Source of the DNA: Oscillospiraceae bacterium
Lineage (GTDB): Bacteria; Bacillota_A; Clostridia; Oscillospirales; Oscillospiraceae
DNA: 15,684 nucleotides
Direction: 5' to 3'
Assembly: GCA_017549325.1 (NCBI GenBank)
Contig: JAFYVA010000049.1
Coordinates: forward strand, 1 to 15,684
The notes under the pieces were generated by a model, which saw nothing but the letters and a program-made list of their open reading frames with translations, was not told where the DNA came from and searched no databases. This document shows positions 2,551 to 15,684 of the stretch, piece after piece. Both the position numbers and the translations under genes were made by a program. Numbering within the stretch: position 1 is the stretch's first letter; each line of letters starts with the position of its first letter.

Positions 2551-2554
2551 ACAC

Positions 2555-2663
2555 GCCTTCTCTCATCCAGACTATACTGTCGGTATCGGAATTGCACCGA
2601 TTCGTGCCCATAGGCTCGCGGACTATCACCGCCGGTGGGGAATTTCGCCCCGCCCCGAAGACT
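2555..2663 (-). promoter_or_regulatory. FMN riboswitch (RFN element)
   Basis: The minus strand carries the hallmark blocks of the RFN aptamer in order: TCTTCGGGGC with GAAATTCCC, then ACCGGCGGT, AGTCCGCGAGCC, GAATCGGTG with AATTCCGATACCGACAGT, and finally AGTCTGGATGAGAGAAG. The 5' CTTC and 3' GAAG close the P1 stem. It sits in the ribU leader about 95 bases upstream of the start codon. FMN binding is known to reduce expression of downstream riboflavin genes. Confidence 0.96.
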
Positions 2664-2686
2664 CTTATTCCGTTGTGTTCAAACAC

Positions 2687-4064: not shown

Positions 4065-5717
4065 TTATTTCGCCTCTTCCACACCGGCAAGTTCTGCGGC
4101 GCGGGCGAGGGCATCGTCGATGTGGGGGCAGAAGTTCTCGCGGCCAACCTTATCGATAAAGCCGGCCTTCTCCATAGTGTGCATGGGCTGTTCGTTGACA
4201 TGGGAGAACACGATGTGGATACCCTTGGCAAGGCAGCGGTCGTGGAGGTTCTCCAGCGCGTTCATGGCGGTGGCATCCACGGCGGGCACGGCACGCATAC
4301 GGATCACGATGCAGCGGGTGAAATCCTTGAAAGAGATCTCGGCGATGCGGTCGGCGGCACCGAAGAACAGGGGGCCGCGGATCTCGTAGACACGGACGGC
4401 CAGAGGCACCTGACGGAGGTTGATGCTGTCCTCGGGTCTGTCGGCATACTTCCAGCCACGGACATCCGTCTCATCGGACATACGCTTCATGAACAGCAGG
4501 CAGGCCAGCAGCATGCCGATCTCGATGGCCACCACCAGATCGAAAACCACCGTCAGCACGAAGGAGATCACCAGCACGAGGATGTCGGACTTGGGTGCGG
4601 TCTTGACCAGATGGACGAAGGGACGCCACTGGCACATATTGTAGGCCACGATGAAGAGGATGGCGGCGATGGTGGGCATGGGAATCAGTGCGGCGTAGGG
4701 CATCAGTACCACCAGCACCAGCAGCAGGACGATGGCGTGAACCATACCGGCCACGGGGGTGCGGCCGCCGGACTTGATGTTGGCGGCGGTACGGGCGATG
4801 GCGCCGGTGGCGGGGATACCGCCGAAGAGGGCCGAGCCCACGTTACCGATACCCTGTGCGATCAGCTCCATGTTGGAGCGGTGGCGGGAGGACACCATAC
4901 CGTCGGCCACCACGCAGCTCAGCAAGGACTCGATACCGGCCAGAATGGCGATGGTGAAGGCGTCGGGCAGCAGGGCGCCCATATCCTTGAGATTGATGGC
5001 GGGGATGGACAGTGCGGGCAGCTTGTTGGAGATGGTGTAGAGATCACCGATGGTGTTCACAGGCAGGTTCAGGAGCTTCACCAGCAGAGCGCCCACCACC
5101 ACGGCGATGAGGGAGGGGGGCACGCGCTTTTCGATCTTGGGATAGACAATGAGGATCAGCAGAGAGACAGCACCCACCAGAATGGCCCAGGGATTGACAG
5201 AGCCGATGTTGTGGAAGAAGGCCTCCAGCTTCTCCAGCGTCTCGATGGGAGCCTCACCGTGGGCGTAACTGACGCCGCAGAAATCCTTCCACTGGCCGAT
5301 GAAGATGGTCACGGCGATACCGGCGGTGAAGCCGGTGGTGATGGTGTAGGGGATGTACTTAATCAGACCGCCGAAACGGCACAGACCCATTACCACCAGA
5401 ATGATACCGGCCATAACGGTAGCCAGCACCAGACCGCCCATACCCTTGGTGGCCACGATACCGGCCACGATGGTGGCGAAGGCGGCGGTGGGACCGGCGA
5501 TCTGCACGGTGGAGCCGCCGAAGAAGGAGATGAGGAAACCGGCCACGATGGCGGTGTAGATACCCTGCTCGGGACCCACGCCGCTGGCCAGCGCCAGTGC
5601 GATGGACAGGGGCAGTGCGATGATGGCAACGATGATACCGGAGACGATATCTTTCACCAGCTGCTGACGGGTGTACCCCTTCAGGGTGGTGAAGAGCATG
5701 GGTGTAAAGTATTTCAT
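4065..5717 (-). CDS. SulP/SLC26-family anion transporter with STAS domain
   Basis: Membrane transporter for an anion such as sulfate or bicarbonate; 550 residues, normal for bacterial SulP. The N-terminal signature around residues 36-62 (small-residue stretch, then G-V-G-P-E-Q-G-I-Y) and the A-G-P-T-A-A block near 74-79 are typical. Many hydrophobic helices follow to about residue 410. A C-terminal STAS domain (about 437-538) includes Asp481 in V-D-A-T-A, where STAS domains often have the regulatory Asp-Ser/Thr. The start is placed at the ATG at 5717 because GAGG lies 8 bases upstream; an earlier in-frame GTG at 5738 has no ribosome binding site. Family membership is firm. The transported ion is not decided by sequence, and no cysteine-biosynthesis or carbonic anhydrase gene is nearby to help. 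Confidence 0.92.
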   Translation of the reverse strand: MKYFTPMLFTTLKGYTRQQLVKDIVSGIIVAIIALPLSIALALASGVGPEQGIYTAIVAGFLISFFGGSTVQIAGPTAAFATIVAGIVATKGMGGLVLATVMAGIILVVMGLCRFGGLIKYIPYTITTGFTAGIAVTIFIGQWKDFCGVSYAHGEAPIETLEKLEAFFHNIGSVNPWAILVGAVSLLILIVYPKIEKRVPPSLIAVVVGALLVKLLNLPVNTIGDLYTISNKLPALSIPAINLKDMGALLPDAFTIAILAGIESLLSCVVADGMVSSRHRSNMELIAQGIGNVGSALFGGIPATGAIARTAANIKSGGRTPVAGMVHAIVLLLVLVVLMPYAALIPMPTIAAILFIVAYNMCQWRPFVHLVKTAPKSDILVLVISFVLTVVFDLVVAIEIGMLLACLLFMKRMSDETDVRGWKYADRPEDSINLRQVPLAVRVYEIRGPLFFGAADRIAEISFKDFTRCIVIRMRAVPAVDATAMNALENLHDRCLAKGIHIVFSHVNEQPMHTMEKAGFIDKVGRENFCPHIDDALARAAELAGVEEAK

Positions 5718-5738
5718 ATTCTTGACCTCACAACACAC

Positions 5739-5768
5739 AATATAATAAAGAAATTGCTAATAACACAA
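5739..5768 (-). promoter_or_regulatory. Possible sigma-A promoter for the SulP gene
   Basis: Minus strand: TTGTGT (5768-5763), 18-base spacer, TATATT (5744-5739). Start would be about 10-15 bases before the GAGG site. A moderate match only. Confidence 0.4.
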
Positions 5769-5828
5769 ACACCGCTATATTACGCCTCAATTCGTAGAAA
5801 TGCAACCCCTAAAATGCAGAAAATGAAG

Positions 5829-6133
5829 AAAAACACTTGGGCGGCCTCGCATAGAGATTTATACGCTCCAAAGGGGCTATTTTCCCACAATACTGCATCA
5901 AAAATCCACGGTAGGCGTCAGCCTTACCATGGATTTTTTCTTTGTCTTGCAGAAAAATCTCTCCCTTTGGAGTGCGTTGCAGTTTTGAATAGAAGATTTT
6001 TGTTCTCAGGGATTTCCAGAGGACGAAGGAATACTGTATGTATTTCGAGGACGATGGATTCCCTGAGGGCGAAAGGATTCATTCAAAACCGCGTAAATCC
6101 CTATGTGAGTCCGCCCTTTTACAGCGGTGTTTT
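5829..6133. repeat. Nested inverted-repeat element (candidate MITE or structured RNA)
   Basis: Non-coding stretch of about 305 bases between the aldolase stop and the SulP promoter. The outer arms 5829-5866 and 6091-6133 are imperfect inverted copies: AAAACAC/GTGTTTT at the ends, then GGGCGG-CTC-CATAG-GATTTA-ACGC matched in reverse on the right. Inside lie two independent arms. Arm A is closed by a perfect 10-bp stem (5866-5875 with 5963-5972) around a long hairpin at 5900-5938. Arm B is closed by TTTTGAAT/ATTCAAAA (5983-5990 with 6081-6088), then CTCAGGGA/TCCCTGAG (6005-6012 with 6060-6067). The fold is a three-way junction on either strand. I saw no transposase and no clear target-site duplication. 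Confidence 0.8.
5900..5938. terminator. Long hairpin inside the element, possible bidirectional terminator
   Basis: The stem AAAAATCCA / TGGATTTTT continues, after one mismatch, as GGTA-GGC / GCC-T-TACC around a GTCA loop. With A5 and T6 at its ends it can act as an intrinsic terminator in both directions, including for the aldolase operon on the minus strand. Confidence 0.55.
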
Positions 6134-6148
6134 CGTAATTTGTTCAAT

Positions 6149-6928
6149 TTATGTCTCCGTTGCCTTGCGGGCTGCCTCCACCTGCATTTTCACGCCGGAA
6201 ATCAGCAGCAGCGTGTCGATTCCCAAGACCATGGCATCGTACCCGGTGGCGAAGCCATCGGCCACGCCGGCAGGCGAACCGGTGAAGAGGAAGCAGAACT
6301 TCCCGTTGTCGCGGCAGGCCTTGCGGATGCGGGCGAATGCCGCCTGCATGGTGGGATGATCGAACTGTCCCGGCAGCCCCATGGAGATCGACAGGTCGAA
6401 AGGCCCGATGAAGATACCGTCCACGCCCTCCATGGCGGTGATGGACTCGATGTTTTCCAGTGCCTCCTTCGTCTCGCACTGCGGCAGCAGCAAAGTGGCC
6501 TCGTTCATCACCGCCATCGTCTCGGCGGTGGTGCGCTCGACGTCAAAGCCCCAGCCATCCTTACGGGTGGGGCAGAAGCCGCGCTGGCCGATGGGGGCGA
6601 ACTTGGCCCAGTCGATGACCTGCTGCACCTCCTCCACGGAATGGATGTTGGGCACGATGAGACCGCGGGCACCCACATCCAGCAGCTTCAGCACGGCGCT
6701 GCGGCTGAGATCACGGACGCGGCACAGGGGGGAGAGATTGCTCAGTTCCGCGGCGCGGATCAGGTCCATGGCCGTCTCGGCCTCGGAGGGGCTGTGCTCA
6801 CAGTCGATGATGACGAAGTCGAGACCCGTGCGGCCCAGACACTCGATGACGGTGGGGCTGTTGAGGCCGCAGAAGGTGCCGAGGGGCTTCTCTGCGCCGA
6901 GCAGTTGCGCTTTCAGCTTATTGTTCAT
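6149..6928 (-). CDS. HpcH/HpaI-family class II aldolase
   Basis: Divalent-metal-dependent aldolase of the phosphoenolpyruvate/pyruvate superfamily; family members split or join pyruvate and an aldehyde (for example 4-hydroxy-2-oxo acids). The 259 residues match the family length. Expected active-site residues are visible: His45 in I-D-C-E-H, Arg70, and metal ligands Glu152 (P-Q-C-E-T) and Asp178 (G-P-F-D-L-S). The ATG at 6928 follows AAGGAG with good spacing. It begins 12 bases after the stop of the aminotransferase upstream, so the two are surely co-transcribed. This suggests that the aminotransferase makes a 2-oxo acid that the aldolase cleaves, but the real substrate is unknown. Transcription probably ends in the hairpin element just downstream. 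Confidence 0.92.
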   Translation of the reverse strand: MNNKLKAQLLGAEKPLGTFCGLNSPTVIECLGRTGLDFVIIDCEHSPSEAETAMDLIRAAELSNLSPLCRVRDLSRSAVLKLLDVGARGLIVPNIHSVEEVQQVIDWAKFAPIGQRGFCPTRKDGWGFDVERTTAETMAVMNEATLLLPQCETKEALENIESITAMEGVDGIFIGPFDLSISMGLPGQFDHPTMQAAFARIRKACRDNGKFCFLFTGSPAGVADGFATGYDAMVLGIDTLLLISGVKMQVEAARKATET

Positions 6929-11837: not shown

Positions 11838-12341
11838 ATGTATCTTCCCACCCGTTGCCGCACAGAGGATGGCTATCTGGTGCACCAGAGTCTCATGACC
11901 GAGGTGCCCTACGGCCGCTATACCGCTGCGAGAAAGGGCTGCGGCTTCATCGCCGTGTACAATGCCGTGCGCTATTTCGCCCGGCCCTATACCGAGGAGC
12001 AGGTGCACCGCTTTTTCCACCGTCAGGTATTCCTCGGCGGTGTGCTGGGCACGACCTTTTTCCATCTGGCCCGCGGCGTGTACCGCTTCGGCCTGCGGGT
12101 GAAGGGGATCCGCTACCGCAATCTCTCCGGCGTGGAGGCGGGCATCCTGTGGTACCATACCGGCAAGACGAAGCACTATGTCTTTCTCCATCGCGGCGAG
12201 GGGGAGAATTTCCGCTATTACAACACCTCCTACGCCCGACAGGAGATGCCGTTTCGTGACTTTTACACCAACCATGTGAAAAAGACACCCCTTCTGAAAC
12301 TGCCTATCATGTTCACCCTGTCTTTGGGTAAGAAAAAGTGA
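11838..12341 (+). CDS. Papain-fold protein resembling peptidase C39-like domains
   Basis: A 167-residue protein without signal peptide or clear membrane helix. Around residues 29-47 it reads as a small C39-like catalytic motif: Cys35 in G-C-G-F, then an Asn-containing helix (Y-N-A-V-R-Y). A later His113 in K-H-Y-V-F and Asn129 in Y-Y-N-T-S fit the His and Asp/Asn of that fold. So a cysteine peptidase or an inactive relative is the best guess, seen by motif only. The ATG at 11838 is used: its site AAGGAG spans the TAA of the threonine ammonia-lyase gene, a layout that gives translational coupling. A TTG further upstream is in frame but lacks a binding site. Any link to threonine metabolism is unclear. 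Confidence 0.65.
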   Translation: MYLPTRCRTEDGYLVHQSLMTEVPYGRYTAARKGCGFIAVYNAVRYFARPYTEEQVHRFFHRQVFLGGVLGTTFFHLARGVYRFGLRVKGIRYRNLSGVEAGILWYHTGKTKHYVFLHRGEGENFRYYNTSYARQEMPFRDFYTNHVKKTPLLKLPIMFTLSLGKKK

Positions 12342-12378
12342 AAAACACCCCATATTCCCTTGGAATATGGGGTGTTTT
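12342..12378. terminator. Strong intrinsic terminator after the ilvA operon
   Basis: Perfect 17-bp stem (12342-12358 with 12362-12378) and a three-base loop, starting directly after the TGA and followed by T-rich sequence. It insulates spo0A from the upstream operon. Confidence 0.92.
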
Positions 12379-12421
12379 GGTTTTGTTTTGGAAATACACG
12401 ATTTACAAATATTTCCTAATA

Positions 12422-15255: not shown

Positions 15256-15383
15256 GAGATGGCAGTAACAAAAAAAGAGACCTGCATCAACGATGCAAGT
15301 CTCTTTGGCAGTGACAAAAGGGCATCATTCCCGATGAGAAGCACTCGCCCCAACCTTGCATGGGGAGAGCGCGAGAGGGGAGG
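15256..15383. repeat. 128-bp direct repeat, copy 1
   Basis: Identical to 15557-15684 except for one base (A at 15264 versus G at 15565), at an offset of exactly 301 bases. It contains a long hairpin (15270-15306) and the left part of another. No convincing gene lies in it. Confidence 0.93.
15270..15306 (-). terminator. Terminator-like hairpin within repeat copy 1
   Basis: AAAGAGAC-c-TGCATC (15274-15288) pairs with GATGCA-a-GTCTCTTT (15292-15306), with one internal mismatch. On the minus strand it is followed by a T7 run (15276-15270), as for an intrinsic terminator. Confidence 0.7.
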
Positions 15384-15556: not shown

Positions 15557-15684
15557 GAGATGGCGGTAACAAAAAAAGAGACCTGCATCAACGATGCAAG
15601 TCTCTTTGGCAGTGACAAAAGGGCATCATTCCCGATGAGAAGCACTCGCCCCAACCTTGCATGGGGAGAGCGCGAGAGGGGAGG
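15557..15684. repeat. 128-bp direct repeat, copy 2, cut by window edge
   Basis: Second copy of 15256-15383, one mismatch, including the terminator-like hairpin (15571-15607). The match is still perfect at the last base of the window, so the repeat continues beyond it and may be part of a longer tandem series. Confidence 0.92.

Follow-up and report, generated by a model that had tools for sequence, protein, structure and literature searches.

Between a SulP-type sulfate permease gene and an HpcH/HpaI aldolase gene, the window (the whole 15,684-nt stretch of Oscillospiraceae DNA that was analyzed) carries a non-coding stretch of inverted repeats, and the question raised by this locus is what that structure is. 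An earlier note had described it as a three-way junction occupying 5829-6133 and had offered a non-autonomous transposable element, a processed RNA or a composite terminator as explanations. The evidence makes it highly probable that 5839-6116 is a non-autonomous MITE-like element, belonging to a widespread family of about 277 nt that enters the hairpin loops of intrinsic terminators and duplicates 2 bp (AA/TT). The features of the locus are collected in Table 1.

Table 1. Features of the element and its surroundings in the window
Feature	Position	Strand	Basis
Whole mobile element (278 nt)	5839..6116	+	sharp ends, common to copies elsewhere; absent from L001/L002
Left terminal inverted repeat	5839..5861	+	repeat search; helix 1 of consensus structure
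Right terminal inverted repeat	6094..6116	+	repeat search; helix 1 of consensus structure
Arm 1 of three-way junction	5864..5974	+	fold; model R1
Arm 1 tip	5900..5938	.	A-tract/stem/T-tract hairpin resembling a bidirectional terminator
Arm 2 of three-way junction	5979..6092	+	fold
Left half of split host terminator, AAAAACAC	5829..5836	.	uninterrupted terminator in L001/L002
Right half of split host terminator, GTGTTTT	6127..6133	.	uninterrupted terminator in L001/L002
Left copy of 2-bp target duplication (TT), probable	5837..5838	.	flank comparison, permutation test
Right copy of 2-bp target duplication (TT), probable	6117..6118	.	flank comparison, permutation test
HpcH/HpaI aldolase gene, terminator interrupted by the element	6149..6928	-	Pfam PF03328
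SulP-type sulfate permease gene, downstream	4065..5738	-	Pfam PF00916 + PF01740

Fold and anatomy of the element

The RNA fold of 5815-6150 has an energy of -140.4 kcal/mol (z = -11.9), and none of 100 shuffled sequences folded as well. The z-score was -9.3 for the minus-strand fold and -7.7 for the fold with DNA parameters. A repeat search recovered the terminal inverted repeats, which are 23 nt long and 87% complementary, and likewise the bases of both hairpin arms. The three-way junction is thus real and far beyond chance.

Arm 1 matched the covariance model R1 at 5859-5988 with 147.7 bits, the window being among the sequences behind the model. The tip of this arm had z-scores of -5.0 and -6.5 on the two strands; it contains mismatches and was detected by a looser scan only, a stricter terminator scan without mismatches leaving the tip in the window unscored. 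In several relatives (e.g. G751:C56), the arm-1 model finds arm 2, in reverse orientation; arm 2 of the window is too diverged and gave no match to that model at E ≤ 1. One element aligned with its own reverse complement at 67%, and the element has the appearance of a single arm unit duplicated in inverted orientation. The inverted terminal repeats of parvoviruses and AAV are T-shaped palindromes with one long stem and two hairpin arms; the likeness would be architectural only, and no homology is suggested.

Rfam gave no relevant match. Within 5700-6250, no intron family was found at E ≤ 1, and the sole match was to a microRNA family, below threshold. Elsewhere in the window, an FMN riboswitch (2551-2666, minus strand, 109.7 bits) lies at the 5' end of a gene for the S component of an ECF-type transporter, which has a weak riboflavin-type match; this pairing of riboswitch and gene is ordinary. 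Furthermore, a 128-nt direct repeat (15256-15383 and 15557-15684, 99% identical, 301 apart) reaches the end of the window; an assembly overlap and a true duplication would both account for it.

The empty site

The same two genes adjoin in L001 and L002, two goat-gut Oscillospiraceae MAGs that were reached via the SulP protein. Their intergenic region contains a plain, uninterrupted palindromic terminator, AAAAACACTGC-TTTTTATA-GCAGTGTTTTT, without the element. The counterpart in the window reads AAAAACAC-TT-[278 nt]-TT-TTACAGCGGTGTTTT; measured against the empty site, the lineage of the window seems to be missing three or four bases on the left side. Because L001 and L002 show the palindrome unsplit, the outermost pairing is assigned to the host terminator and the insert to 5839-6116. 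The extent of 5829-6133 given earlier for the junction did not hold, its outer ends being the halves of the host terminator. The aldolase ORF ends 32 nt from the end of the element.

A weaker second pair of filled and empty sites is formed by L113 in genome G104 and its counterpart in G179, where an ordinary hairpin terminator that differs in sequence, and no element, comes after the gene orthologous to the L113 neighbor. The other flank of L113 gave no match to the G179 locus, so that this second empty site is one-sided. A further candidate locus was set aside since it was not a clean empty site.

Insertion into terminators

The pairing of left and right flanks was scored in two sets of copies. 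In the first set of 24 copies, the duplex of a copy's own flanks had a median of -16.9 kcal/mol vs. -7.0 kcal/mol for cross-paired flanks; 15 copies fell below the 5% tail of mismatched values, and the own right flank was the best in 12. This set excluded L109, L114, L119 and L120, with one usable flank each, and contig-end fragments. The second set was obtained with the arm model alone, and its element ends were read by eye, with the flanks in view, before scoring. Twenty of its 30 loci were scored; L216, L219, L222, L224, L232 and L237 were without one end, and L239, L242, L243 and L244 were left out as no matching second end was seen. The medians were -16.45 kcal/mol for own flanks vs. -7.25 kcal/mol cross-paired, 11 of the 20 copies were below the 5% tail, and the own flank was the best partner in 11 (1 expected by chance). 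An A-tract on the left together with a T-tract on the right was present in 15 of the 20.

Over both sets, 26 of 44 copies pass the 5% tail and 18 fail. The copies that fail are the window, L082, L084, L086, L088, L124, L136, L139 and L175 in the first set and L218, L223, L234, L235, L236, L238, L240, L241 and L245 in the second. No terminator is visible by eye at L086, L088, L238, L241 and L245, and at L084 and L175 the terminator stem seen by eye lies beyond the 24 nt scored. In the window, pairing between the two flanks is no more than moderate (-7.5 kcal/mol, with 7 of 23 foreign right flanks as good), and insertion into a terminator at this locus rests on the empty site.

The insertion point lies between the two stem halves of the terminator. 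Moreover, the near-identical copies L087, L107 and L121 sit in terminators with different stem sequences. IS110-type elements with bridge RNA use, in the cited excerpt, a single target sequence for each element or each set of close elements (PMC11187229), and an IS110-type element was rejected on the different stems at these three copies. A strong symmetric terminator in the window itself, AAAACACCCCATATTCC...GGAATATGGGGTGTTTT at 12342-12378, is an uninterrupted site of the kind used by the element; the arm-model matches at 12294-12405 represent an ordinary terminator and not an element. At L144 (205-246), a 42-nt mini element consisting of two terminal repeats only lies inside a well-paired terminator and indicates that the arms can be lost.

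A 2-bp repeat flanked 21 of 33 copies in the first test vs. 14.5 after permutation (P 0.003), with AA in 16 and TT in 5, and 3-bp repeats were at chance level in the same 33 copies; L136, with a shifted end, was left out, and the repeat register was chosen by eye. In the second set, 2-bp repeats were present in 10 of 20 copies (5.2 permuted, P 0.007) and 3-bp repeats in 5 of 20 (1.6 permuted, P 0.013), so a duplication length of 2 bp is not certain. A 2-bp AA/TT target duplication is supported by these tests. No bias of insertion orientation was seen among 26 rows, in which genes were called by ORF length only: 8 were tandem forward, 5 tandem reverse, 10 convergent, 1 divergent and 2 one-sided.

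It was considered whether the element is RNA-mobile and targets terminators in the manner of a group IIC intron. Bacterial-C group II introns insert directly after terminators, according to the cited portion of PMC8919778; like them, the window family uses intrinsic terminators as low-harm landing sites, and the element has a strong RNA fold. However, introns of this class are described there as ribozymes, usually with a reverse transcriptase, whereas the window element is a 277-nt one without an Rfam match and is located in the hairpin loop rather than downstream of the terminator. The 2-bp duplication, the occurrence of both orientations relative to tandem genes (8 vs. 5) and the G-U counts given below, which do not exceed A-C, also argue against such an origin, which is extremely unlikely. 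A group II intron proper (IIC) was rejected, as Rfam detected no ribozyme core at E ≤ 1 in 5700-6250 and the insertion is between stem halves.

Conservation of pairing and size

In the consensus structure of 24 sequences from the subfamilies, 95.8% of cells are paired (97.5% in helix 1, the terminal repeats), and pairing falls to 40-52% when the partner is slid by 1-3 columns as a control. Shuffle counts for this structure are not probabilities, since the 24 sequences share ancestry and their own alignment supplied the structure. Compensatory changes, with both sides altered, occurred in 40 of the 71 pairs of the three-way junction. The covariance check proposed in the earlier note was therefore positive.

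A one-strand RNA is expected to favor G-U on its own strand. For pairs present in the folds of both strands, G-U vs. A-C counts were 18 vs. 16 (A2) and 9 vs. 17 (A1), and for the union of pairs they were 53 vs. 66 and 54 vs. 47; pairs of the plus fold only favor G-U and those of the minus fold only A-C, as folding itself dictates. G-U is not above A-C, and therefore what is maintained is pairing in the DNA itself or in the transcripts of both strands. On this test, a functional RNA from one strand was discarded as the main explanation. Thus the covariation expected of a processed RNA was found, but the strand preference was not.

The 52 full copies measured are 267-280 nt long (mean 277.3 nt); close relatives are among them, so that the number of independent events is below 52, and the copies in G641 and G425 were not added. 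End sequences differ widely, as a comparison of the window (GGGCGGCCTCGCATAG) with L238 (AGCCAAACAAGAGTTG) shows. In the alignment, the arm-1 loop of L149 is reversed.

Length and T-shaped fold are therefore kept while terminal sequences vary widely (L223, L238 and L241), and compensatory change is common, with no strand preference. These observations, together with the reversed loop of L149, a hairpin-type event, would fit an element that is acted on, as a folded single strand or cruciform, by a hairpin-recognizing enzyme of the HUH or another type, with terminators being entered because they also extrude hairpins. However, terminal inverted repeats and a target duplication are present, and IS200/IS605 and REP/RAYT elements are not known to have either; we consider this explanation rather unlikely. 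An element derived from IS200/IS605 or REP/RAYT was itself rejected on those two features.

Spread and movement of the family

In the family-level search, 24 of 400 genomes matched at E ≤ 1e-3 and at least 8 of 400 had long homologues, with complete copies in seven; these genome counts are lower bounds, two candidates per genome having been scored. The long matches in G093 are all truncated at contig ends. With fragments and contig-end pieces counted, each of the eight genomes with long matches has 1-16 matches. Of 10 genomes, 8 matched the end pattern, and the reversed pattern, used as a control, matched none. A second subfamily with different ends, reached via a weak match, is present in at least 20 of 400 genomes at E ≤ 1e-6. 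With the arm-1 covariance model, 80 of 394 genomes of the order matched at E ≤ 1e-4 (eight candidates per genome scored, E-values rough). None of 32 genomes in the genus of the nearest relatives had a match, and in further genera searched whole the carriers were 2 of 2, 2 of 2 and 1 of 5 genomes. The distribution of the family is patchy. Many copies sit at contig ends, and contigs often break inside copies. Plasmid and phage collections were searched and gave no match, nor did two exact-pattern scans of viral contigs.

L081 and L082, from two congeneric genomes, differ at 1 of 279 positions, and a comparison of their flanks gave no match at E ≤ 1e-20. The three copies in G104 show 3-5 differences over 278 positions. 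In G641, whose contigs reach 1.4 Mb, and in G425, copies of the same type were compared letter by letter on the left side only; they agree fully across the 19-24 nt between the start of the arm and the left end of the element, and diverge beyond it. Recent movement is shown by near-identical copies at unrelated loci. With dispersed copies in genomes of the family and the empty site in L001 and L002, the copy-number and empty-site check put forward in the earlier note came out in favor of a non-autonomous transposable element. Among the single-ended matches fetched with the end pattern in 10 genomes, only short or truncated elements and no autonomous partner were found, and no transposase with matching ends was seen among the end-pattern matches inspected.

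An RNA or composite terminator that benefits the host, is retained for a role in gene regulation and only looks mobile would be in keeping with the internal terminator-like hairpins, which a strict scan detected in 32 of 52 elements on the plus strand and 16 of 52 on the minus strand vs. 6 of 260 shuffles (in these, blocks of dinucleotides were permuted, and dinucleotide content is preserved only approximately). It would also suit the four truncated copies, L138, L145, L146 and L150, which retain the arm-1 hairpin. However, near-identical elements lie at unrelated loci, the orthologous site in two relatives is without the element, and the sharp ends and short direct repeats are left unexplained, which makes such a role improbable. 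What stands of the composite terminator is that the element is inside a terminator and has a terminator-like arm 1 tip.

Other repeats were observed. L093, L095, L097, L098, L100-L104, L201 and L203 are interspersed hairpin repeats that are apparently single-armed and have different ends, several of them having the tip motif GGAATACTTTGTGTATTTC in common; they are perhaps related units in other genomes of the family. In G033, truncated copies at L135 (1545-1700) and L137 (3020-3131) both end at a similar GGACCCG hairpin, an arrangement resembling recombination of the element with another repeated terminator. Another interspersed repeat in this genome lies beside L136, L137, L138 and L139, with 73-88% identity over 113-451 nt.

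Comparison with known mobile elements

Bacterial MITEs include RUP, BOX, NEMIS, bcr1, ERIC, YPAL, EFAR and Nezha in the cited excerpts (PMC3733652, PMC10969869), and a size of 70-300 bp is given in the first of these (PMC3733652). Like MITEs, the window family is short (52 copies measure 267-280 nt, which leaves no room for a transposase gene), non-coding, intergenic and multi-copy, with terminal inverted repeats, a strong hairpin, a target duplication (2 bp, the length being in some doubt), dispersed copies and empty sites. It departs from other MITEs in its size, fixed near 277 nt, its nearly symmetric T shape with two arms, the divergence of its terminal repeats under a retained fold and its preference for terminator loops, and no parent IS is known for it.

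SPRITE of Streptococcus pneumoniae is described in the cited part of PMC3049150 as an interspersed repeat that resembles a Rho-independent terminator and is enriched near gene 3' ends; its inverted repeats are AAAA/TTTT only, and no comparable empty site was found for it there. The window family is likewise interspersed, terminator-associated and near gene 3' ends. However, SPRITE, as portrayed in that part, is itself terminator-like, whereas the window family sits inside pre-existing terminators and has long GC-rich terminal repeats.

According to the cited excerpts, certain IS elements insert at the symmetry axis of REP palindromes, ISPsy8 with a 3-bp duplication (PMC1525189), and IS30, whose duplication is 2 bp, has a near-palindromic hot spot with a central 2-bp insertion (PMC9333248). 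By analogy, the window family may be likened to these in its palindromic target, insertion at the axis and short duplication. However, IS30 and the REP-targeting IS use particular sequences, as far as these excerpts go, whereas the terminators of the window family have different stems and no transposase gene is present.

Proposed mechanism and significance

The MITE-like element would be recognized by a transposase supplied in trans, the target being recognized as a palindrome or hairpin rather than by its sequence. Once inserted, the element would fold back on itself so that its terminal stem extends the interrupted terminator stem, and the extended stem would bring the terminator halves together again beside the U-tract; the element would also add its own terminator-like arm tip. 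The split terminator may thus still be functional. Insertion would be tolerated or nearly neutral because self-folding lets the split stem re-form, and a terminator loop probably does little harm as a landing site. Intrinsic (Rho-independent) terminators are present at many gene ends and would for that reason offer many low-cost targets to an element that inserts in their loops.

More tentatively, and with considerable doubt on our part, the family may represent a superfamily recognized by shape, in which the fold and the 277-nt size rather than the letters of the ends are selected, and which enters terminator hairpins with termination kept. We know of no equivalent mode of shape-recognized transposition into terminators. 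Among the matches listed in a search of the open-access literature, with subscription journals outside the search, no counterpart in terminator loops was recognized, and the element family is apparently undescribed so far.

With carriers making up about a fifth of the sampled genomes of the order (80 of 394) and copies at contig ends, the family is relevant to annotation, terminator prediction and assembly. The finding raises the question of how a transposition system finds terminators that are alike in shape and not in sequence. If the fold keeps the split terminator working, the element would be a natural example of a self-splinting insertion.
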